From assembly GCF_004135385.1 (NCBI RefSeq), contig NZ_CP035493.1:3601440-3665439 (forward strand): a DNA stretch of 64,000 nt. Reading direction: 5' to 3'. The stretch comes from Xylanimonas protaetiae (GTDB lineage: Bacteria > Actinomycetota > Actinomycetes > Actinomycetales > Cellulomonadaceae). The notes under the pieces were generated by a model. That model was given only the letters and a program-made list of their open reading frames with translations, was not told the DNA's origin and made no database searches. Within the stretch, counting starts at the first letter, position 1. Each line of letters opens with the position of its first letter. Positions 46,227 through 59,176 of the stretch are shown here, piece after piece. Position numbers and translations under genes: made by a program.

Positions 46227-46451
46227 TCAGCGCGTCCCGTAGCGGCGGCGGAACTTCTCGACGCGGCCGGCCGTGTCGACGACGCGCGTGCCGCCGGTCC
46301 AGAACGGGTGGCTCGCCGCCGAGATCTCGACGTCGACGACGGGAACGTCGCCGCCGCGGCCGCCCAGCGTGGAGCGGGTCGCGAACGTGGTGCCGGTGCT
46401 CCGGTCGCGGAAGACGACGGGGCCGTAGGCGGGGTGGATGTCCTTGCGCAT
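46227..46451 (-). CDS. rpmE2: 50S ribosomal protein L31 type B (zinc-independent)
   Basis: A 74-residue L31 ([20 protein letters not shown]...SHPFWTGG) with none of the Cys residues of the zinc-binding type, the C-minus form used when zinc is scarce. It starts two bases downstream of the rpmG stop, in the same transcript as the L33 gene and under the same Zur-like box. The C+ L31 is presumably encoded elsewhere. Confidence 0.93.
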
Positions 46452-46452
46452 G

Positions 46453-46617
46453 TCAGCGCTCCTCACGGAAGTCGACGTGCCGGCGCACGACGGGGTCGAA
46501 CTTGCGGATCGCCAGCCGGTCCGGGTCGTTCCGGCGGTTCTTGCGGGTCACGTAGGTGAACCCGGTGCCGGCCGTCGACCGGAGCCGGACGATCGGCCGC
46601 AGCTCGTTGCGGGCCAT
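46453..46617 (-). CDS. rpmG: 50S ribosomal protein L33 (zinc-independent copy)
   Basis: A 54-residue L33 ([30 protein letters not shown]) lacking the Cys pairs of the zinc form. GAGGAGG is the ribosome site. It is transcribed first, with rpmE2 behind it. The pair of zinc-free paralogues is typically repressed by Zur in actinomycetes, and a matching site lies 18-32 bases upstream. S14 and L28 paralogues, often found with them, are not here. Confidence 0.94.
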
Positions 46618-48071: not shown

Positions 48072-50543
<2,472 letters not shown>

Positions 50544-50606
50544 GGTTTGACAGTACAAGCCACGCCCGCGGCCAGCACCAGCAGCGGCCCATTGTGAGCC
50601 CCCGGG

Positions 50607-50634
50607 CCGGGCGTCCGCGGACGGCCGCCCGGCG
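50607..50634. terminator. Terminator after jetC
   Basis: GCCGGGCG (50607-50614) and CGCCCGGC (50627-50634) enclose TCCGCGGA, itself a palindrome. It is 12 bases past the jetC stop and separates the operon from glgP. Confidence 0.55.
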
Positions 50635-50645
50635 GCGCCCCACCG

Positions 50646-53600
50646 TCAGCTCGCCGGCTCCCCGTCCAGCCCGACGACGGCGCGCGCCCGCGAGCGCCCG
50701 CTCGCGTCCTTCACGACGACGTAGGAGGCCTCGACGTGGGGCTCGAGCGCGCTCACCTTGTCGTTGGGCGCGCCGACGACGAGCTGGAACCCGAGCCCGC
50801 GCCACGCCCCCACGGCACGCCCGGAGAACTGGGCGTCGGCCTTGATGAGGGCCTCGTCGAGGAACACGGGCGCGTACCGGGGCCGCGCGGCGCCGGCGTC
50901 GCCGAGCTGGTAGCGCAGGGCCGCGCCGACGATGAAGGCGACGAGCTCCTGCGACTCGCCGCCGGACTTCTCCCCGATGTGGTCGTAGAGCGCGACGTGG
51001 GTGCCGTCGAGGTCGACCTTCTCGGCGGCCAGGCGCACGTGCCGGCGCACGTCGACGAGGTCGGCGAAGTCGGGGGCGGTGCGGCGCATGCGGTCGACGA
51101 GGCGGGCCATGCGGGCGTAGCGCACCTCGCGCTCGGCGTCGGTGGCCTGCTCGCCGAGGAGCGTGCGCACGGCCCGCAGCTCCTTGCGGAACCCCGTGAC
51201 CAGGGCGGACTGCGTCTGGTGGGCGTCGATGCGCAGGCGGTGCACGTCGTCGGCGAACGGCAGGCCGGCGAGGATCTCGTTGACCGGGGCGATGCGGTCG
51301 GTGATCTCGCGGACCGCGCGGGCCATGGTGTGCTCGAAGTCGGTGAGGTCGGCGCCGGAGAGCCGCAGCAGGCTCTTGCGCCAGTCGGCCTCGAGCTCGT
51401 GCAGGCGGGCGGTCTCGAGCGTCGTGAGCACGCGCTCGAAGTCGGGGTAGCTCGCGTCCGGGTCGGTGCCCAGGTTCGGGTCGTCCCACTGCCGCAGGAA
51501 CGCCTCGAACGTCGCCCGCAGGGCGTCGGTGCTGGTCGCGGCCTCGAGGCGGGCGGTCTCGGTGTCGTGCACGAGCCGGTCCGCGACGCGGCCGACGACG
51601 TCGTCGAAGGCCCGGAGCGCGGCGGCGGGGTCGCCGCCGGCCGGGTCGCCGGGTGCGTCCGCGACGAGCGCGTCGAGGTAGGCCCGCTGCTCGTCGTCCA
51701 CGGAGCCGCCGCGGTCGTCCGCGTCGTCGAGCGCACGCTGGGCGACGTCGACGGCGTCGCTGACCTGCTCCCACTCGCGCTCGAGCGCGGCGGCGGCGGC
51801 CTTGGCCGAGCCGAGGTCCTGCTGGAGCGCGCCGACGAGCGCGTCGAGCTCGCGCGAGCGCGCCTCGAGCCCGCCGAGGTCGCCGTTGTCGTCACGGACC
51901 TTGTCGATCACGTCGGTCCACCGGTCGAGCTCGCCCTGCGCGCCGACGACGTCGACCTGCTCCCAGGCGAGGTCGACGACGACGCGGGCCGCGGCGACGT
52001 CCTCCTCGTGCGCGTCGAGGCGCAGGTCGGCGCCGCGCAGCGCCTCGGACGCCTTGACCAGGGCCTCCTTCGCCGCGGCGACCTGCTCGTCGAGGTGGGC
52101 AAGGCGGCGCGAGTTCGTGAAGCCCAGCACGTTGGCGCGGCCCTGGCCGCCGTGCGCACCGCGGGCGCCCTCGCTCGTCTGGCCGGCGCGGGTCAGCGCC
52201 TTGCCGTGGCGGGCGAGCCGGTCGGCCGACTCCACGCAGACGTACGCGTACCGCTCGGCCAGGCGGCCCCTGAGCCAGCCGTGGAACGGGCCCGCCTTGA
52301 CGTCCAGGCGGCCGGGCAGCGTGCCCGCGTCGAGCGCGACGTCGCAGTCGAGGTCCGTGGGCACGCCCTCGAACCGGATGCGCTCGCGCGTGGGGACGGC
52401 CTCGATCGCGGCGCGGAACCGGTCCAGGTGGGCCTCGTCGACGAGCACCTGGGTGGCGAACCCGCCGAGGGCCAGGTTGAAGGCGTCGCGCCAGGCCTCG
52501 TGCTCGGTGCGCACCTCGACGAGCTCGGCGACGAACGGCAGGTCCTCGGCGCGCAGCCCGGCGGCCTTCGCGAGCGCGACACGCGCCGCGTGGAGGTGCT
52601 CGGGCACGTTGCCCTGCCGGCCGGCGAGCGCGGTCCGCTCCGCCTCGAGGGTGCGCACATCGCGCTCGGCGTCCTTGACCAGGTCGCGGGCGGTGTCGCG
52701 GGCGGCGAAGAGGGCGTGGCGGGCGGCGCCGTCGGAGATCCGCGCGTGCAGCGCGGCGGCGGCCTTCTCCAGCCCCGCCCGGGTGGTCACGGCGTCGTGC
52801 TCGAGCTGCGCGAGGGCCGCGTCGAGCTTGCCGCGGTCGCGGCGCACGGCCTCGAGGTGGGCGGTGGCCGTGGCGAGCTCGCGCTGGGCGTTCTGGAGCG
52901 CGGCGCCGCCCGACGTCCACAGCGTGGCGCGGGTGCCGTCGAGCTCGTCCTTGCGGGCGCTGACGCTCGCCTGGAGGTCGGCGACCCGGGCGGTGGCGGC
53001 GCGCGCACGACGCTGGACGTCCTCCTCGACGCCGCGCAGCAGCTCCACGCGGCGGCGGTGCCGCCACAGCGAGACGGGCGAGGCGACGTCGTCGAGCGTG
53101 CCGACGCCCGCGATGACGTCGAGGCGGGCGCGCGCTGCGTCGACGGACGCCCGGTGCTGGCGGATCGGGGCGAGGACGCGCACCTGCTGCTGCGCGGTGA
53201 GCATCTGCGCGCGCGTGCCGGCGAGCTCGTCGAAGTGCTCGACGACGTCGTCGGCCTTGGCGAGCGTCTCGGGCTCCTCCAGCACCATGGCCTTGTAGAG
53301 CGCGTCGACCGTGGTGATCTGCTGGCCGGCCTGGATGCGGGCGAGCAGCGCGACGGCCTTGGCGCCGCCGCCCGCGGCGCCGATGCCGAGCGTCGAGTGC
53401 AGGCGGGCCGTGAGCTCCTTGTCGGTGTCGAAGCAGGTCAGGCCCAGCGCGGTGAGGGTCGCGCGGGCGAAGCGCTGCTCGGCGGGCGTCGTGAGGTCGC
53501 GCGCGTCGAAGCGCCCGGCGACCGTCGCACGGACCGCGACCAGGTCCTCCATGGCCTGGGTGCCCGCGGGCACGTACCAGGCGCGCACGGCCGTGAAGAG

Positions 53601-54011
53601 CGAGCCGGACTGGTCGGCCCACGTCATGGCGATGGCAGACCAGGTGTCGCGGCCGTCGCCGCGCAGCACGCGCTGCCGGGTGCCGTCGGCCGTGCGCGAC
53701 TCGTCGATCTTGCCGCGCGCGTACGAGATGACGTTGCGTTGGTCCTTGCCGCGCGGGCGCCCGGTGACGCCGCCGTTCGACGCGCCGTTGAAGGGCGTCG
53801 TGTGCGGCATGAGCAGGGCGATGTACGCGTCCATGAGCGTCGACTTGCCCGAGCCGGACGCGCCGCTGAGCAGCGTGGCGCCCGGGGCGAGGACGACGCG
53901 GTGGTGGCCGTCGTAGCCGCCCCAGTTGACGAGCTGGAGCTCGCGGGCCACCCACTGCTGGCCCGTCGAGGCCGCGGGGATGAGCCCGAACAGGGAGTCG
54001 AGCATCGTCAT
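50646..54011 (-). CDS. jetC: JetC/MksB-like SMC-family ATPase of a Wadjet/Mks condensin
   Basis: The 1,121-residue motor of a Wadjet-type SMC complex. The N-terminal head has [14 protein letters not shown] and Walker [15 protein letters not shown] (about 47-60). Long coiled coils run through the middle, with a hinge-like folded part around residues 470-700. The C-terminal head has the signature [14 protein letters not shown] and Walker [13 protein letters not shown], all intact. The ATG overlaps the jetB stop. In complete systems this ATPase extrudes plasmid DNA so that JetD can cut it; no jetD is next to it here. Confidence 0.9.
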
Positions 54012-54712
54012 TCGTCGTCCTCCTCGTCGTCGGCGGCCGCGCCGGCCGGGGCGCCCGCCGGGGCGCCGACCGAGGCGGCGGCCAGGTGCGCGCCGGAGCG
54101 CAGCCACGCGAGCAGCTCGCCGAGCCGCTCCACCGAGAGCACCACCTCGACCAGCGGCGTCACGCGGTAGCGGCCCTCGGACTCCTCCTCGAGGAAGCCC
54201 TCCTTGACCAGCCGCGCCACGGCCGCGCGGATCTCGCGCTGGAGCGCGGCCTGGTTCGTCTCGTGCGGGTCCAGGTACGTCAGCGCGGTCTGCTCGAGCT
54301 CCTCGGCGTCGAGCCGCGCCGAGCGCTCGCCGGCGCCCTGCTCGCGCTGGAACACGGTGCGCAGGTGCACCAGCAGGATCGTCTCGATGCGCGAGTACGC
54401 CTCGTCGCGCAGCAGCACGGGCACCTCCGTCTCGGCCGTGCGGACCTGCCGCTTGTAGGCCAGGCCGCGGTCGTGGTCGACGACGAGGCGCACGAACAGG
54501 TCGTGCAGGCGCGACTCGATGACGGCCTGGTGCGCGATGAGCGCCTTCCACTGGGCCGGGTTCGCGTCCGCGCGCAGGTAGCGGCGGCGCAGCAGGTTGA
54601 CCAGGACGCGGCGCGCCTCGGCGTCGAGGGTGCCGGTGTCCCCCGCGAACAGCGCGGCGGGGTCGGCCTCCATGGGGACCGGCTCGATGAAGCCGGGGTC
54701 GTCGGTCGTCAT
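54008..54712 (-). CDS. jetB: JetB/MksE-like DUF4194 protein
   Basis: A 234-residue DUF4194 protein, the KITE-type partner of the JetC ATPase (MksE in Mks nomenclature). Winged-helix segments around 35-65 and 165-205 ([29 protein letters not shown]) fit the fold; an acidic, Ala/Gly/Pro-rich tail follows. Translationally coupled to jetA and jetC by ATGA overlaps on both sides, as in known Wadjet operons. Confidence 0.9.
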
Positions 54713-56199
54713 CGGTCCTCCGACGTCGTGGGGGTGGGTTCGGGAGCCAGGACGACGTCGCTGAACGCGAGGCGGCGGCGCGTGCCGTCCGGGCGCACGG
54801 CGACGACCTCCACCACCTCGTCGGACGCGACGGCGCCCAGGCCGTCGGCGATCTCGAGCAGCCCGAGCAGGTCGACGGGGCGGCGCAGCGCCTCGGGGGC
54901 CGCGGCGAACGCCGCGGCGAGGCTGCCCTCGTGCGCCGTGAGGTGGCTGCGCAGGTCGGCGTAGTGCGGCCCGCCCCACGCGCGCGCGTGGTCGAGCGAG
55001 CCGGCGGCGTCGTCGTCCCACTCCGGGAGCGGGGCCGGGGGCTGGGCGAGGCGCAGGTCGTCGAGGGTCTCGCGCAGGCGGCCCACCTGGGCGCGCGGCA
55101 GGCGCGGCACGGCGTGCACGGGCTGGCCGCGGCGCGTCCCCGGGATCCACGCGGCGAGTTCGACGATGACGTCGCGCAGCAGGTCGTCGACCTGCCGGTC
55201 GCGCAGCGGGTCGTGGTGGCGCACCTGCGTGGTGATGACGCGCGAGGCCGTGCGCTGCGCGGCGAGGACGGCGTCGAGGCCCTCCTCGATGCGGCGGGCG
55301 ACGCCCGCGAGCTCGGCACGCTGCCGGGCGGGCAGCCGCTGCGTGAACGGCTGCCGGAGGATCAGGTCGAGGTGGTCGGCGAGCGCGTCGAGCTGCTCCG
55401 GCTCCCCCACGAGCCGCAGGGCGCCGCTGAACGCCCGCCCCTCCGACGTGGACTCGAGCAGGTGCTCGGCCGCGTCGAGATACTCGCGCAGCACGTCGCC
55501 CGTGGGGCGCTCGTCCTGCCGCAGCGCGGTGACGACCTCGCGCTGGAGCGCCTTGATGGACTCGGCGACGCGCGCGAAGTCGGCGGGCAGCTCGCGCACG
55601 AGGTCCAGGACGTTCTCGGCCTCCTCGAGCAGCGTCTCGTCGCCCACGACGTCGACGACGCCCGTGCGCTCGAGCCGGTCGAGCTCGCGCGTGGCCCGTG
55701 CGACCTCGGCCCGGAGGCGGGTGCGGCGCGTGGCGACGTCCGGGTCGGCGTCCTGCGCGAGGCGGTCGACGGCGTCGAGCAGCGTGCGCACGCGCGACTG
55801 CGTGACGCGCGAGCGCGGTCCGCCGGCCCGGCCGGCGACCTCCAGGGCGCCGACGGCGTGGGCCGACAGCCGGTACACCTCGACGTCGTCCTCGCCGCGC
55901 GTGCCGCCGCGCTCCGCGGGCTCGACCTGCCGCACCAGCCAGCCCGCGTCCACCCACTGGCGGGCGAGGTCGCGGGCCGTGCCGGGCGGCAGGTCCTCGT
56001 GGCCGGCGGACCGCAGGCGGTCGAGGGCGTCGCCGAGCTCGGTGTGCGCGTCCGCGACGGGCACGCTCGCGCGCGCAGGCGTGAACACGGACGCCAGCAG
56101 CGTCACCACCAGGGGCGCGTGCCGCTTGTGGAGCAGCGCGAGCATCGGGCTCTGGAAAGCCCTCAGCGCACCCTCGTAGGCACCCTCGATCGTCGCCAT
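54709..56199 (-). CDS. jetA: JetA/MksF-like DUF3375 kleisin
   Basis: A 496-residue DUF3375 protein, the kleisin that bridges the JetC heads (MksF). The N-terminal winged-helix part ([25 protein letters not shown]) and the long helical middle ([27 protein letters not shown]) are typical. It is the first gene of jetABC and starts only 20 bases after leuS, with no separate promoter visible, so read-through from leuS is possible. Confidence 0.9.
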
Positions 56200-56219
56200 G
56201 CAGCCGTCGGCTCGCCGTC

Positions 56220-59176
56220 TCAGACGACGATGTTGACGAGCTTCGGCGCGCGCACGATCACCTTGCGCACCGGCTTGCCGTCCATGGCCTTGACGACGTT
56301 CGGCTCGGCCAGGGCCGCGGCCTCGAGGTCGGCGTCGGAGATGGACGGCGGCACCTCCAGGCGGCCGCGCACCTTGCCCTGCACCTGGACGACGCACGTC
56401 ACGGTGTCCTCGACGAGGTACTGCGGGTCGGCCACCGGGAACGGCTCGTGCGCCAGCGACTCGGGGTGGCCCAGCCGCGACCACAGCTCCTCGGCCAGGT
56501 GCGGCGCGACCGGGGCGGTCATGAGAACGAGCGGCTCGACGGCCGCGCGCGGCACCGACGGCAGCGCCGTCAGGTGGTTGTTGAGCGTGATGAGCTTGGC
56601 GATCGCCGTGTTGGGGCGCATGCCCTCCATCTCGGCGGTCACGTCGGCGATCGCGCGGTGCACGGCGCGCAGCGTCTCCGTGGACGGGGTCTCGTCGGTC
56701 ACCGTGACCTCGCCCGTCTCCTCGTCGACGACGTTGCGCCACAGGCGCTGGAGGAACCGCTGCGAGCCGACGACGTCGCGCGTGTTCCACGGGCGCGACA
56801 CGTCGAGGGGGCCCATCGACATCTCGTAGACGCGGAAGGTGTCGGCGCCGTACGCCGCGTACATGTCGTCGGGCGTGACGACGTTCTTCAGCGACTTGCC
56901 CATCTTCCCGTACTCGCGCTCGACGGCCTCGCCGTGCCACGTGTACCCGTGCTGCTCATCGCCCTCGACCTCGGCCGCCGGCACCGGGAACCCCTTGGCG
57001 TCGCGGTACGCGTACGCCTGGATGTAGCCCTGGTTGAACAGCTTGCCGAACGGCTCGACCGCCGAGACGAAGCCCAGGTCGAACAGCACCTTGTGCCAGA
57101 AGCGCGCGTACAGCAGGTGCAGCACGGCGTGCTCGACGCCGCCCACGTACAGGTCGACGCCGCCCGCGACGCCGCTGGTGGCGTTGTGGCGCGGGCCCAT
57201 CCAGTACGACTCGAGCGCCGGGTCGACGACGGCGTCGCCATCCGTGAGCGTCGGGTCCAGGTAGCGCAGGTAGTACCAGCACGACCCCGCCCAGTTGGGC
57301 ATGGTGTTGGTGTCGCGGCGGTACTGCTGCGGGCCGTCGCCCAGGTCCAGGGTGACGTTGACCCAGTCCTCGTTGCGGCCCAGCGGGGCCTCCGGCGAGG
57401 AGTCCTTGTCCTCCGGGTCGAACGTGCGCGGGGCGTAGTCCGGAACGTCGGGCAGGTCGACGGGCAGCAGCCTCTCGGGGATGGCGACCGGGCGGTCCTG
57501 CGCGTCCCACACGATGGGGAACGGCTCTCCCCAGTAGCGCTGGCGGGAGAACAGCCAGTCGCGCAGGCGGTAGGTGATGGTGCCCTCGCCGACGCCGTGC
57601 GCCTCCAGCCAGGCGATCGTCGCGGCCTTCGCCTCGGCGACGGCCAGGCCGTTGACGTCCAGGTCGACGACGCGCTCGGCGTCGGGCGCGGGGCTGTTGA
57701 CCGTGACGCCGTCGCCCGTCCAGGCGCCCTCGAAGCCCTCGGGCAGGCCGTCCTCGGGTGCCACCGTGTAGATGACGGGCAGGTCGAAGCCGGCGGCGAA
57801 CGCGTTGTCGCGCTCGTCGCCGCCGGGCACGGCCATGATCGCGCCGGTGCCGTAGCCCATGAGCACGTAGTCGGCGGTGAATACGGGGATGTGCGCGCCG
57901 GACAGCGGGTTGACGGCCAGGTGGCCCGAGAACACGCCGGTCTTCTTGCCGGCGTCGGCCTGCCGCTCGACGGCGGTCTTGGCCGCGGCGGCCTTGCGGT
58001 ACGCGGCGATGGCCTCGACGGGCGTCGCGTGGCCGCCCGTCCAGACGCTCTTGGTGCCGTCCGGCCAGGCGGCCGGGACCTCGTCCAGCAGCGGGTGCTC
58101 GGGGCCACGACCATGAAGGTCGCGCCGAACAGCGTGTCGGGGCGCGTGGTGAACACCTCGACGGACTGGCCCGCGCCGGCGGCGTCGAAGTCCGACGTGC
58201 CGACGACGTGGAAGCGCACGTTCGCGCCGGTCGAGCGGCCGATCCAGTTGCGCTGCATCGACTTGACCTTCTCGGGCCAGTCGATGAGCTCGAGGTCGTC
58301 CGTCAGGCGGTCCGCGTAGGCGGTGATGCGCATCTTCCACTGGCGCAGCGCCTTGGTGAACACCGGGAAGTTGCCGCGCTCGGAGCGGCCGTCGGCCGTG
58401 ACCTCCTCGTTGGCCAGCACGGTGCCCAGGCCGGGCGCCCAGTTCACGGGCGACTCGTCGACGTAGGCCAGGCGCTGGGCGTCGACGACGTCGCGCCGCT
58501 CGGTCTCGCTCAGGTCGGCCCAGGAGGTCCCGGCCGGGTGGCCCGGGACGGGACGGGTGCCCGCGGCCAGCTCCTCGCGCAGCTCGGCGATGCGGCGGGC
58601 GCGGCCCGTGCCACCGTCCGGACGCGCGGCGTCGGCGTCGTACCAGGAGTCGAAGATCTGCAGGAAGATCCACTGCGTCCAGCGGACGTAGTCGGGGTCG
58701 ATCGTGGCGAACGAGCGGCGCGGGTCGTGCGCCAGGCCCATGCGGCGCAGCTGGCGCTGGTAGACCTCGATGTTCGCCTCGGTGACGCCGCGCGGGTGCT
58801 CGCCGGTCTGCACGGCGTACTGCTCGGCGGGCAGGCCGAACGCGTCGAAGCCCATGGCGTGCAGCACGTTGTCGCCGCGCATGCGGCGGAAGCGCCCGAC
58901 GACGTCCGTGGCGATGTAGCCCAGCGGGTGGCCGACGTGCAGGCCCGCGCCCGAGGGGTACGGGAACATGTCCATGATGAAGTACGGGCTGCCGGTCGCG
59001 CCCGGCCCGGTGAGGTCGCCCGTCGGGTTCGCGGCGTGGAACGTGCCGCGCTCCTCCCAGCGGTCCTGCCAGCGCAGCTCGATCTCCTGAGCGAGGGCGG
59101 GCGTGTAGCGGAAGGCGGGCTCGCGAGAGCCTTCGGTGGCCGGGGTGGCGGCGGGCGCGGCGTCGGACGTACTCAC
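56220..59176 (-). CDS. leuS: Leucyl-tRNA synthetase, reading frame broken by one missing base near 58100
   Basis: Charges tRNA-Leu with leucine. The frame from GTG 59176 ([16 protein letters not shown]) carries the HIGH-type HVGHPLGY in [16 protein letters not shown] and reads through the editing-domain motif [18 protein letters not shown]. It is then lost at about 58100; the rest, from [16 protein letters not shown] through the KMSKS-type KMGKSLKN to the C-terminus, is in the next frame. Adding one C between 58100 and 58101 restores a 985-residue protein. The gene is essential and the rest is intact, so a sequence error is likely; true decay would need a second leuS. Confidence 0.93.

Follow-up and report, generated by a model that had tools for sequence, protein, structure and literature searches.

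What does a Wadjet motor do in a bacterium without the Wadjet nuclease? Wadjet type I systems (JetABCD, also known as EptABCD or MksBEFG) and other SMC complexes are known to extrude DNA loops in an ATP-driven manner. A stretch of 64,000 nucleotides from Xylanimonas protaetiae (contig NZ_CP035493.1, positions 3,601,440 to 3,665,439; called the window below, with positions counted from its first letter) raises this question: it carries a jetABC operon of type I, and two profile searches find no JetD in the genome. The explanation that fits best would be that the lineage of the window lost the nuclease JetD and kept the motor JetABC. It is very probable that this motor is functional without JetD, and the chances that it mainly serves as an accessory condensin are, in our view, about even. 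What the computations support is the identity of the genes, their intact motifs, the absence of JetD, its recurrent loss in relatives, and purifying selection.

All 3 genes lie on the minus strand with open reading frames. The first, jetA (54709–56199), encodes a kleisin subunit of 496 residues (DUF3375; PF11855, E = 1.3e-115; PADLOC JetA1, 2.4e-189), jetB (54008–54712) a KITE subunit of 234 residues (DUF4194; PF13835, 3.8e-40; PADLOC JetB1, 1.3e-101), and jetC (50646–54011) an SMC-like ATPase of 1121 residues (PADLOC JetC1, E = 0; Pfam SbcC_Walker_B, 3.6e-21, and AAA_29, 1e-20). The 3 proteins match the PADLOC type I profiles as well as the chains of solved Wadjet structures (JetC 3.6e-53, JetA 1.1e-14, JetB 7.8e-05), and the gene order and the ATGA overlaps between jetA and jetB (54712–54709) and between jetB and jetC (54011–54008) are those of Wadjet type I. 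The translation of JetC contains a Walker A motif (GASGSGKS, residues 50–57; 53841–53864), an ABC signature (KSGGES, residues 1015–1020; 50952–50969), and a Walker B motif (VFLDEA, residues 1049–1054; 50850–50867), all on the minus strand and with positions calculated from the residue numbers. The window thus holds intact type I Wadjet genes, and an earlier note made from the sequence alone had been right about the subunit identities, the ATPase motifs, the coordinates and strand, and the coupled starts. DUF3375 has a single match in the whole genome, which is the jetA of the window.

JetD, the DUF3322-DUF2220 nuclease of Wadjet type I, was not found with the 2 profiles either in the operon or in the genome, which is a single contig of 3.86 Mb and 99.88% complete. 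Neither the Pfam profile JetD_C (PF09983) nor a full-length JetD profile made from 10 sequences (E ≤ 0.1) has a match in the complete genome, so that the whole-genome search suggested in the earlier note returned nothing. As a positive control, the full-length profile search recovered JetD in 3 genomes that have it (G090, G140, and G144); its matches in 2 others (G092, E = 0.039; G019, E = 0.065) cover some 60 residues each with an internal stop and were taken as chance. It is unlikely that the JetD profile is too weak to see JetD, because JetD_C is present in 19 of the 21 DUF3375-positive genomes of one family (f7), which speaks for sufficient sensitivity. The flanks of the operon leave no room for the nuclease: only 20 bases (56200–56219) separate the leuS stop from jetA, and the expected jetD site between jetC and glgP (50544–50645, minus strand) spans 102 bases with a glgP start at 50543 or 87 with a start at 50558. 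A jetD gene of about 1.2 kb fits neither gap, as the earlier note had stated, and tblastn found no JetD trace in the gap before glgP. The hairpin that the same note had placed after jetC folds no better than shuffled sequences (z = 0.39) and was dropped as evidence for a terminator. With no JetD found at the locus or in the genome, the set is a Wadjet-derived JetABC that is incomplete as a Wadjet system.

Other SMC complexes share this architecture. In Smc-ScpAB, too, an SMC ATPase is joined by a kleisin and KITE subunits, but JetC of the window scores far below the cut-off for bacterial SMC (46.4 versus 567.35 bits for TIGR02168), and a canonical SMC is encoded separately in the same genome (893.6 bits). 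MksBEF of Pseudomonas and MukBEF of Escherichia coli are KITE-type SMC complexes without a nuclease, a make-up that the set in the window would share. By sequence the proteins of the window are nonetheless far nearer to Wadjet type I, with JetB barely above the Pfam cut-off for MksE (PF21980, 29.5 versus 27 bits) and JetC above that for the MukB N-terminus (25.4 versus 23 bits); compared to MksBEF and MukBEF, losses of the type seen in the window occur in Actinomycetota and are repeated, and a chromosomal role of the set in the window would be putative. A review proposes that MksBEF of P. aeruginosa likely arose through loss of JetD (PMC10586767). Loss of the nuclease as such therefore has a proposed precedent, whereas the recurrent pattern in actinobacteria did not turn up in the open papers searched: none of the papers listed by searches of open PMC articles, which leave out bioRxiv and the bulk of the subscription literature, describes JetD-less type I Jet systems of Actinomycetota in its title or the opening of its abstract.

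Relatives of X. protaetiae frequently have JetA without JetD. Among 200 genomes of its family (16 of them outside the class of 90% completeness and 5% contamination), 156 have DUF3375 and 31 have JetD_C; all of the latter are also DUF3375-positive, and the remaining 125 of the 156 have no JetD_C match. In a sample of 297 genomes from the order, DUF3375 is present in 131, JetD_C in 66, and both in 62, so that 69 of the 131 lack JetD and 4 genomes have JetD without DUF3375. In a phylum-wide sample of 298 genomes, these numbers are 19 for DUF3375 (18 above cut-off), 28 for JetD_C (25 above cut-off, mostly weak), and 10 for both. Retention of JetD is strongly family-dependent in the order sample as counted by eye, from the 19 of 21 JetA-positive genomes in f7 to 4 of 25, one of them weak, in another family (f10).

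At the level of loci we compared 161 cases, namely the window, 80 stretches from genomes of the family (part of the DUF3375 places listed for it), and the best 80 of 290 named loci, for which JetD was sought only beside jetC. Four of them have no full-length JetC, either because of short contigs or a missing jetC (L068, L069, L070) or because jetC is in 2 pieces (L126). After removal of 13 duplicates, 144 distinct jetABC loci comprise 89 without JetD, 51 with JetD, 1 with a remnant, and 3 of unknown status. Low-GC loci were missed by gene calling, and JetC was taken there from stop-to-stop frames. One of 59 loci first called JetD-minus (L090) did have JetD as an uncalled gene; the other 58 show no JetD trace within 3 kb or up to the contig end, with which some of the downstream stretches terminate. 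A distant clade of 8 loci (L076–L079, L084, L085, L089, and L133) wholly lacks JetD while its sister clade has it; in the members compared, JetC is roughly 25% identical to that of the window, and the signature motif of this clade departs from the usual one. In one further genome (G192), a JetD match interrupted by a TGA (C15, 52791–53216) lies on a different contig from the only jetA match and is an orphan remnant.

The JetD status switches at least 22 times on a JetC tree of the 144 loci, and the changes forced by well-supported branches number 21 for JetD-plus and 23 for JetD-minus when counted apart. On a tree of 49 loci, hand-picked to include sister pairs on purpose, all 16 changes are forced, and a tree that unites the JetD-minus loci in one clade is rejected (approximately unbiased test, p-AU 0.000119). 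The trees are FastTree or quick IQ-TREE reconstructions with long-branch warnings, and only full-length JetC entered the JetC tree. A count that allows only losses and assumes no regain gives 35, or 31 once weak branches are collapsed by our own rule. Changes on a tree alone do not separate gain from loss, yet loss is favored because the JetD and JetC distances agree, because every deep JetC clade contains JetD, and because remnants of jetD exist. The distances correlate closely across 39 JetD-plus loci of the main clade (r = 0.916, 0 of 999 permutations), with 17 of 36 splits common to the JetD and JetC trees and 3 of 13 well-supported JetD splits in conflict. In Cellulomonas sp. URHE0023 (L167), jetC is intact and has a jetD remnant of 49 residues (63% identity) next to it, and partial JetD_C matches are found near the jetD position, as judged from coordinates, in 2 other genomes (G176 and G432). 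Most changes of JetD status are thus probably losses.

Pairwise comparison of JetD-plus with JetD-minus loci points in the same direction. In 5 of 14 pairs (L194/L208, L212/L179, L103/L149, L107/L165, and L139/L109) JetD is absent in place, the match after jetC resuming 1.06 to 1.30 kb later in the JetD-plus member; the upstream flank match is long in the second, third, and fourth of these pairs, with little or none in the first and the last. Other pairs differ by about 2.5 kb (L073/L097), involve the remnant (L134/L167), or are rearranged (L170/L171 and L066/L063), and for 4 pairs (L204/L201, L198/L219, L187/L193, and L140/L146) the comparison shows no downstream match. A further candidate for an in-place deletion, L135/L118, was dropped as an exchanged cassette. 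One clade of 14 loci covering several genera is JetD-minus throughout.

Without JetD, the motor genes still show purifying selection. In JetD-minus pairs the median ratio of nonsynonymous to synonymous substitution rates (dN/dS) is 0.12 for JetA, 0.176 for JetB, and 0.123 for JetC (16/17 chosen pairs each), compared to 0.133 (7 pairs), 0.20 (8), and 0.249 (8) in 8 JetD-plus pairs, in which JetD itself has 0.30 (7), and to 0.169 (10), 0.184 (11), and 0.176 (11) in 11 mixed pairs. These are Nei-Gojobori estimates on high-GC genes from hand-chosen pairs in which some loci are reused, and the JetD-minus and JetD-plus pairs stem from different lineages. Walker A and Walker B are both kept in 90 of 90 full-length JetD-minus JetC proteins, and the signature pattern in 82; the 8 exceptions belong to a single clade, and the exact pattern is missing from its JetD-plus sisters as well. 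Among JetD-plus JetC proteins, 4 lack Walker A owing to a late called start and 1 lacks the Walker B pattern.

The genes around the operon offer a view on how it came to its place. It lies between leuS (56220–59176, minus strand, in 2 frames as located by tblastn with a relative's LeuS, the upper end being the start of that alignment) and glgP (48072–50543, minus strand). The earlier note had suggested comparing the leuS-jetA junction in relatives. The order leuS-jetABC-glgP without JetD recurs in 4 genomes of the same genus (G009, G034, G051, and G080) and, outside the genus, in G018, G042, and G144, and JetD is missing in 19 of 21 leuS-linked loci; the 22nd locus listed (L122) was left out as its LeuS match is false (33% identity). 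JetD is present in leuS-jetABCD of G090, where glgP is not adjacent, and in leuS-jetABCD-glgP of G140. In glgP the window groups as sister with a close relative (L063; 93.3% identity, support 100/99), and its LeuS is nearest to the same relative (90.5% over 571 single-frame residues) on a tree that is unresolved at that point. JetC of the window, however, is only 70.9% identical to that of L063 and falls outside the genus clade, while L063 and L066 share 87.2%. Between the window and its sister species, leuS and glgP thus have 90–93% identity and the genes between them 64–71%, a step that is also seen in nucleotide identity to L063 (leuS 0.86–0.93, jetABC 0.66–0.88, glgP 0.88–0.95), and a stronger step of the same kind separates L135 from L083, with jetD in L135 only. 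Since the glgP groups with L063 while JetC does not group with the genus, jetABC, with or without jetD, is swapped between fixed leuS and glgP neighbors, and the sequence comparisons identify the cassette in the window as a swapped allele. A simple loss of JetD within the genus is doubtful for the window because of this exchange, and the loss of its JetD may predate the arrival of the cassette. Microbacterium stercoris, a member of another family, has a jetABC without jetD whose proteins are related to those of the window (L155; JetA 67.4%, JetB 71.6%, JetC 66.4%), a similarity that suggests horizontal transfer between families.

The behavior of this cassette weighs against a simple accessory condensin, and so do several other observations. 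JetABC diverges faster than its neighbors, with identities to 5 relatives of the genus of 63–68% for JetA, 65–66% for JetB, and 70–72% for JetC, compared to 84–91% for LeuS (5 relatives) and 88–93% for GlgP (4 relatives). Pairs that include the window show raised dN/dS (JetA 0.37–0.57, JetB 0.36–0.47, JetC 0.34–0.46; LeuS 0.26–0.34 and GlgP 0.19–0.28 in the same pairs). Cassette exchange in the window and in G140 is more typical of defense genes, and a swapped allele in the window weakens a simple housekeeping view. JetABC could thus defend without a nuclease of its own by extruding or compacting incoming circular DNA, which would block expression, replication, or segregation, or by passing this DNA on to general host nucleases. 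Fast divergence together with exchange at a fixed address would suit such a role, as would the patchy occurrence outside the family (the 19 of 298 genomes of the phylum sample) and the finding that 5 fetched genomes (G144, G064, G025, G151, and G197) combine a JetD-minus JetABC with a JetABCD from a different clade. We consider it unlikely, at odds of perhaps one in four, since the motor alone gave no plasmid restriction in the system that PMC10586767 describes.

The third possibility is a nuclease encoded elsewhere, which would dock on the conserved N-terminus of JetB and could be a JetD that escaped detection or an enzyme unrelated to it, of the TOPRIM or another type. The JetB of the window still has the motif FIEPVPME (residues 8–15; 54668–54691, minus strand), a candidate JetD-docking peptide and another point against the condensin. 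Among JetD-plus loci, its pattern FI.[PT][VI].[MA]E occurs in 36 of 39, with short JetB calls in the remaining 3. Of the younger JetD-minus loci, 57 of 65 have it, the window included, and of the 12 loci in the oldest JetD-minus clade none does. A second motif, LFAGDTGTL (residues 21–29; 54626–54652, minus strand), is kept with and without JetD (LF.GD.G.L in 36 of 39, 63 of 65, and 12 of 12 loci, respectively). The same review reports that an N-terminal JetB motif, IFDR, contacts JetD (PMC10586767), and by analogy FI.PV.ME may be its equivalent and dock JetD; alignment to the solved JetB chains does not reach this region. The motif may also persist by slow decay, given that 20 of 77 JetD-minus loci deviate, as few independent events, versus none of 36 readable JetD-plus loci. 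A column test gave no clear sign that an interface with JetD has been relaxed in either JetA or JetC, with positions conserved with JetD and loose without it numbering only 7 of 261 in JetA, 4 of 127 in JetB, and 12 of 536 in JetC, so that the N-terminal motif of JetB alone is suggestive. No gene recurs beside jetC as a replacement effector in the 86 JetD-minus loci with a next gene. In 50 of them this gene runs in the opposite direction, and among those on the strand of jetC the most frequent is glgP (8 loci), all other groups having at most 4. With the 2 genome-wide profiles and the 125 family genomes without a JetD_C match also speaking against it, this idea, already raised in the earlier note, is improbable and lacks support for a JetD-type protein. 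We also note that in 3 JetD-minus loci (L095, L096, and L178, the last from Cellulomonas iranensis) a gene of 116–123 residues overlaps jetC by 4 bases and appears MazG-like by eye only.

That the operon is a defense system in decay, with its nuclease gone and the rest to follow, was the remaining proposal of the earlier note. The erosion of jetD in place (the remnant in L167 and the truncated matches in G176 and G432), the raised dN/dS around the window, and the jetC of the JetD-minus locus L126 (G117) in 2 pieces would agree with it; this last locus, not full length and therefore outside the motif count, also speaks against a functional motor and is possibly a broken gene or a sequencing error. 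However, the Walker motifs are kept throughout and dN/dS in JetD-minus pairs is well below 1, which makes decay very unlikely, and neither the all-JetD-minus clade across several genera nor the open frames of the window agree with an operon on its way out.

The nuclease-free condensin, which the earlier note had listed as well, fits best in that many lineages keep JetABC under purifying selection although they have no JetD; the formation of a complex, loop extrusion, and work on the chromosome rather than on plasmids are the parts that we infer. Dimers of JetC, together with the kleisin JetA and the KITE subunit JetB, would be loaded onto DNA and use ATP to extrude loops without cutting them, and the complex would act next to the genome's own canonical SMC as an accessory condensin. 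More generally, and more tentatively, the JetABC motor of Actinomycetota might have a lasting function of its own, with JetD as an optional addition that was lost on some 16 to 35 separate occasions, while the motor stayed under selection, occurs in about three-quarters of the genomes sampled from one family, often sits at a fixed address beside leuS, and is exchanged there as a cassette. If true, Wadjet would be better viewed as a condensin with an occasional cutter. Systems that lost JetD, some with a near JetD-plus relative, form matched pairs for asking what a non-cutting motor does. Because JetD is often lost in these genomes, a JetABC match alone should not be counted there as anti-plasmid defense.

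Two observations concern the surroundings of the operon. The leuS gene of the window, normally essential, has a frame change near 58100, with tblastn pieces covering residues 1–363 and 362–990 of a relative's LeuS; this is perhaps a sequencing error, and otherwise a second leuS would be expected. Two small genes at 46227–46617 resemble by eye the ribosomal proteins L31 type B and L33 and are possibly zinc-independent paralogues.

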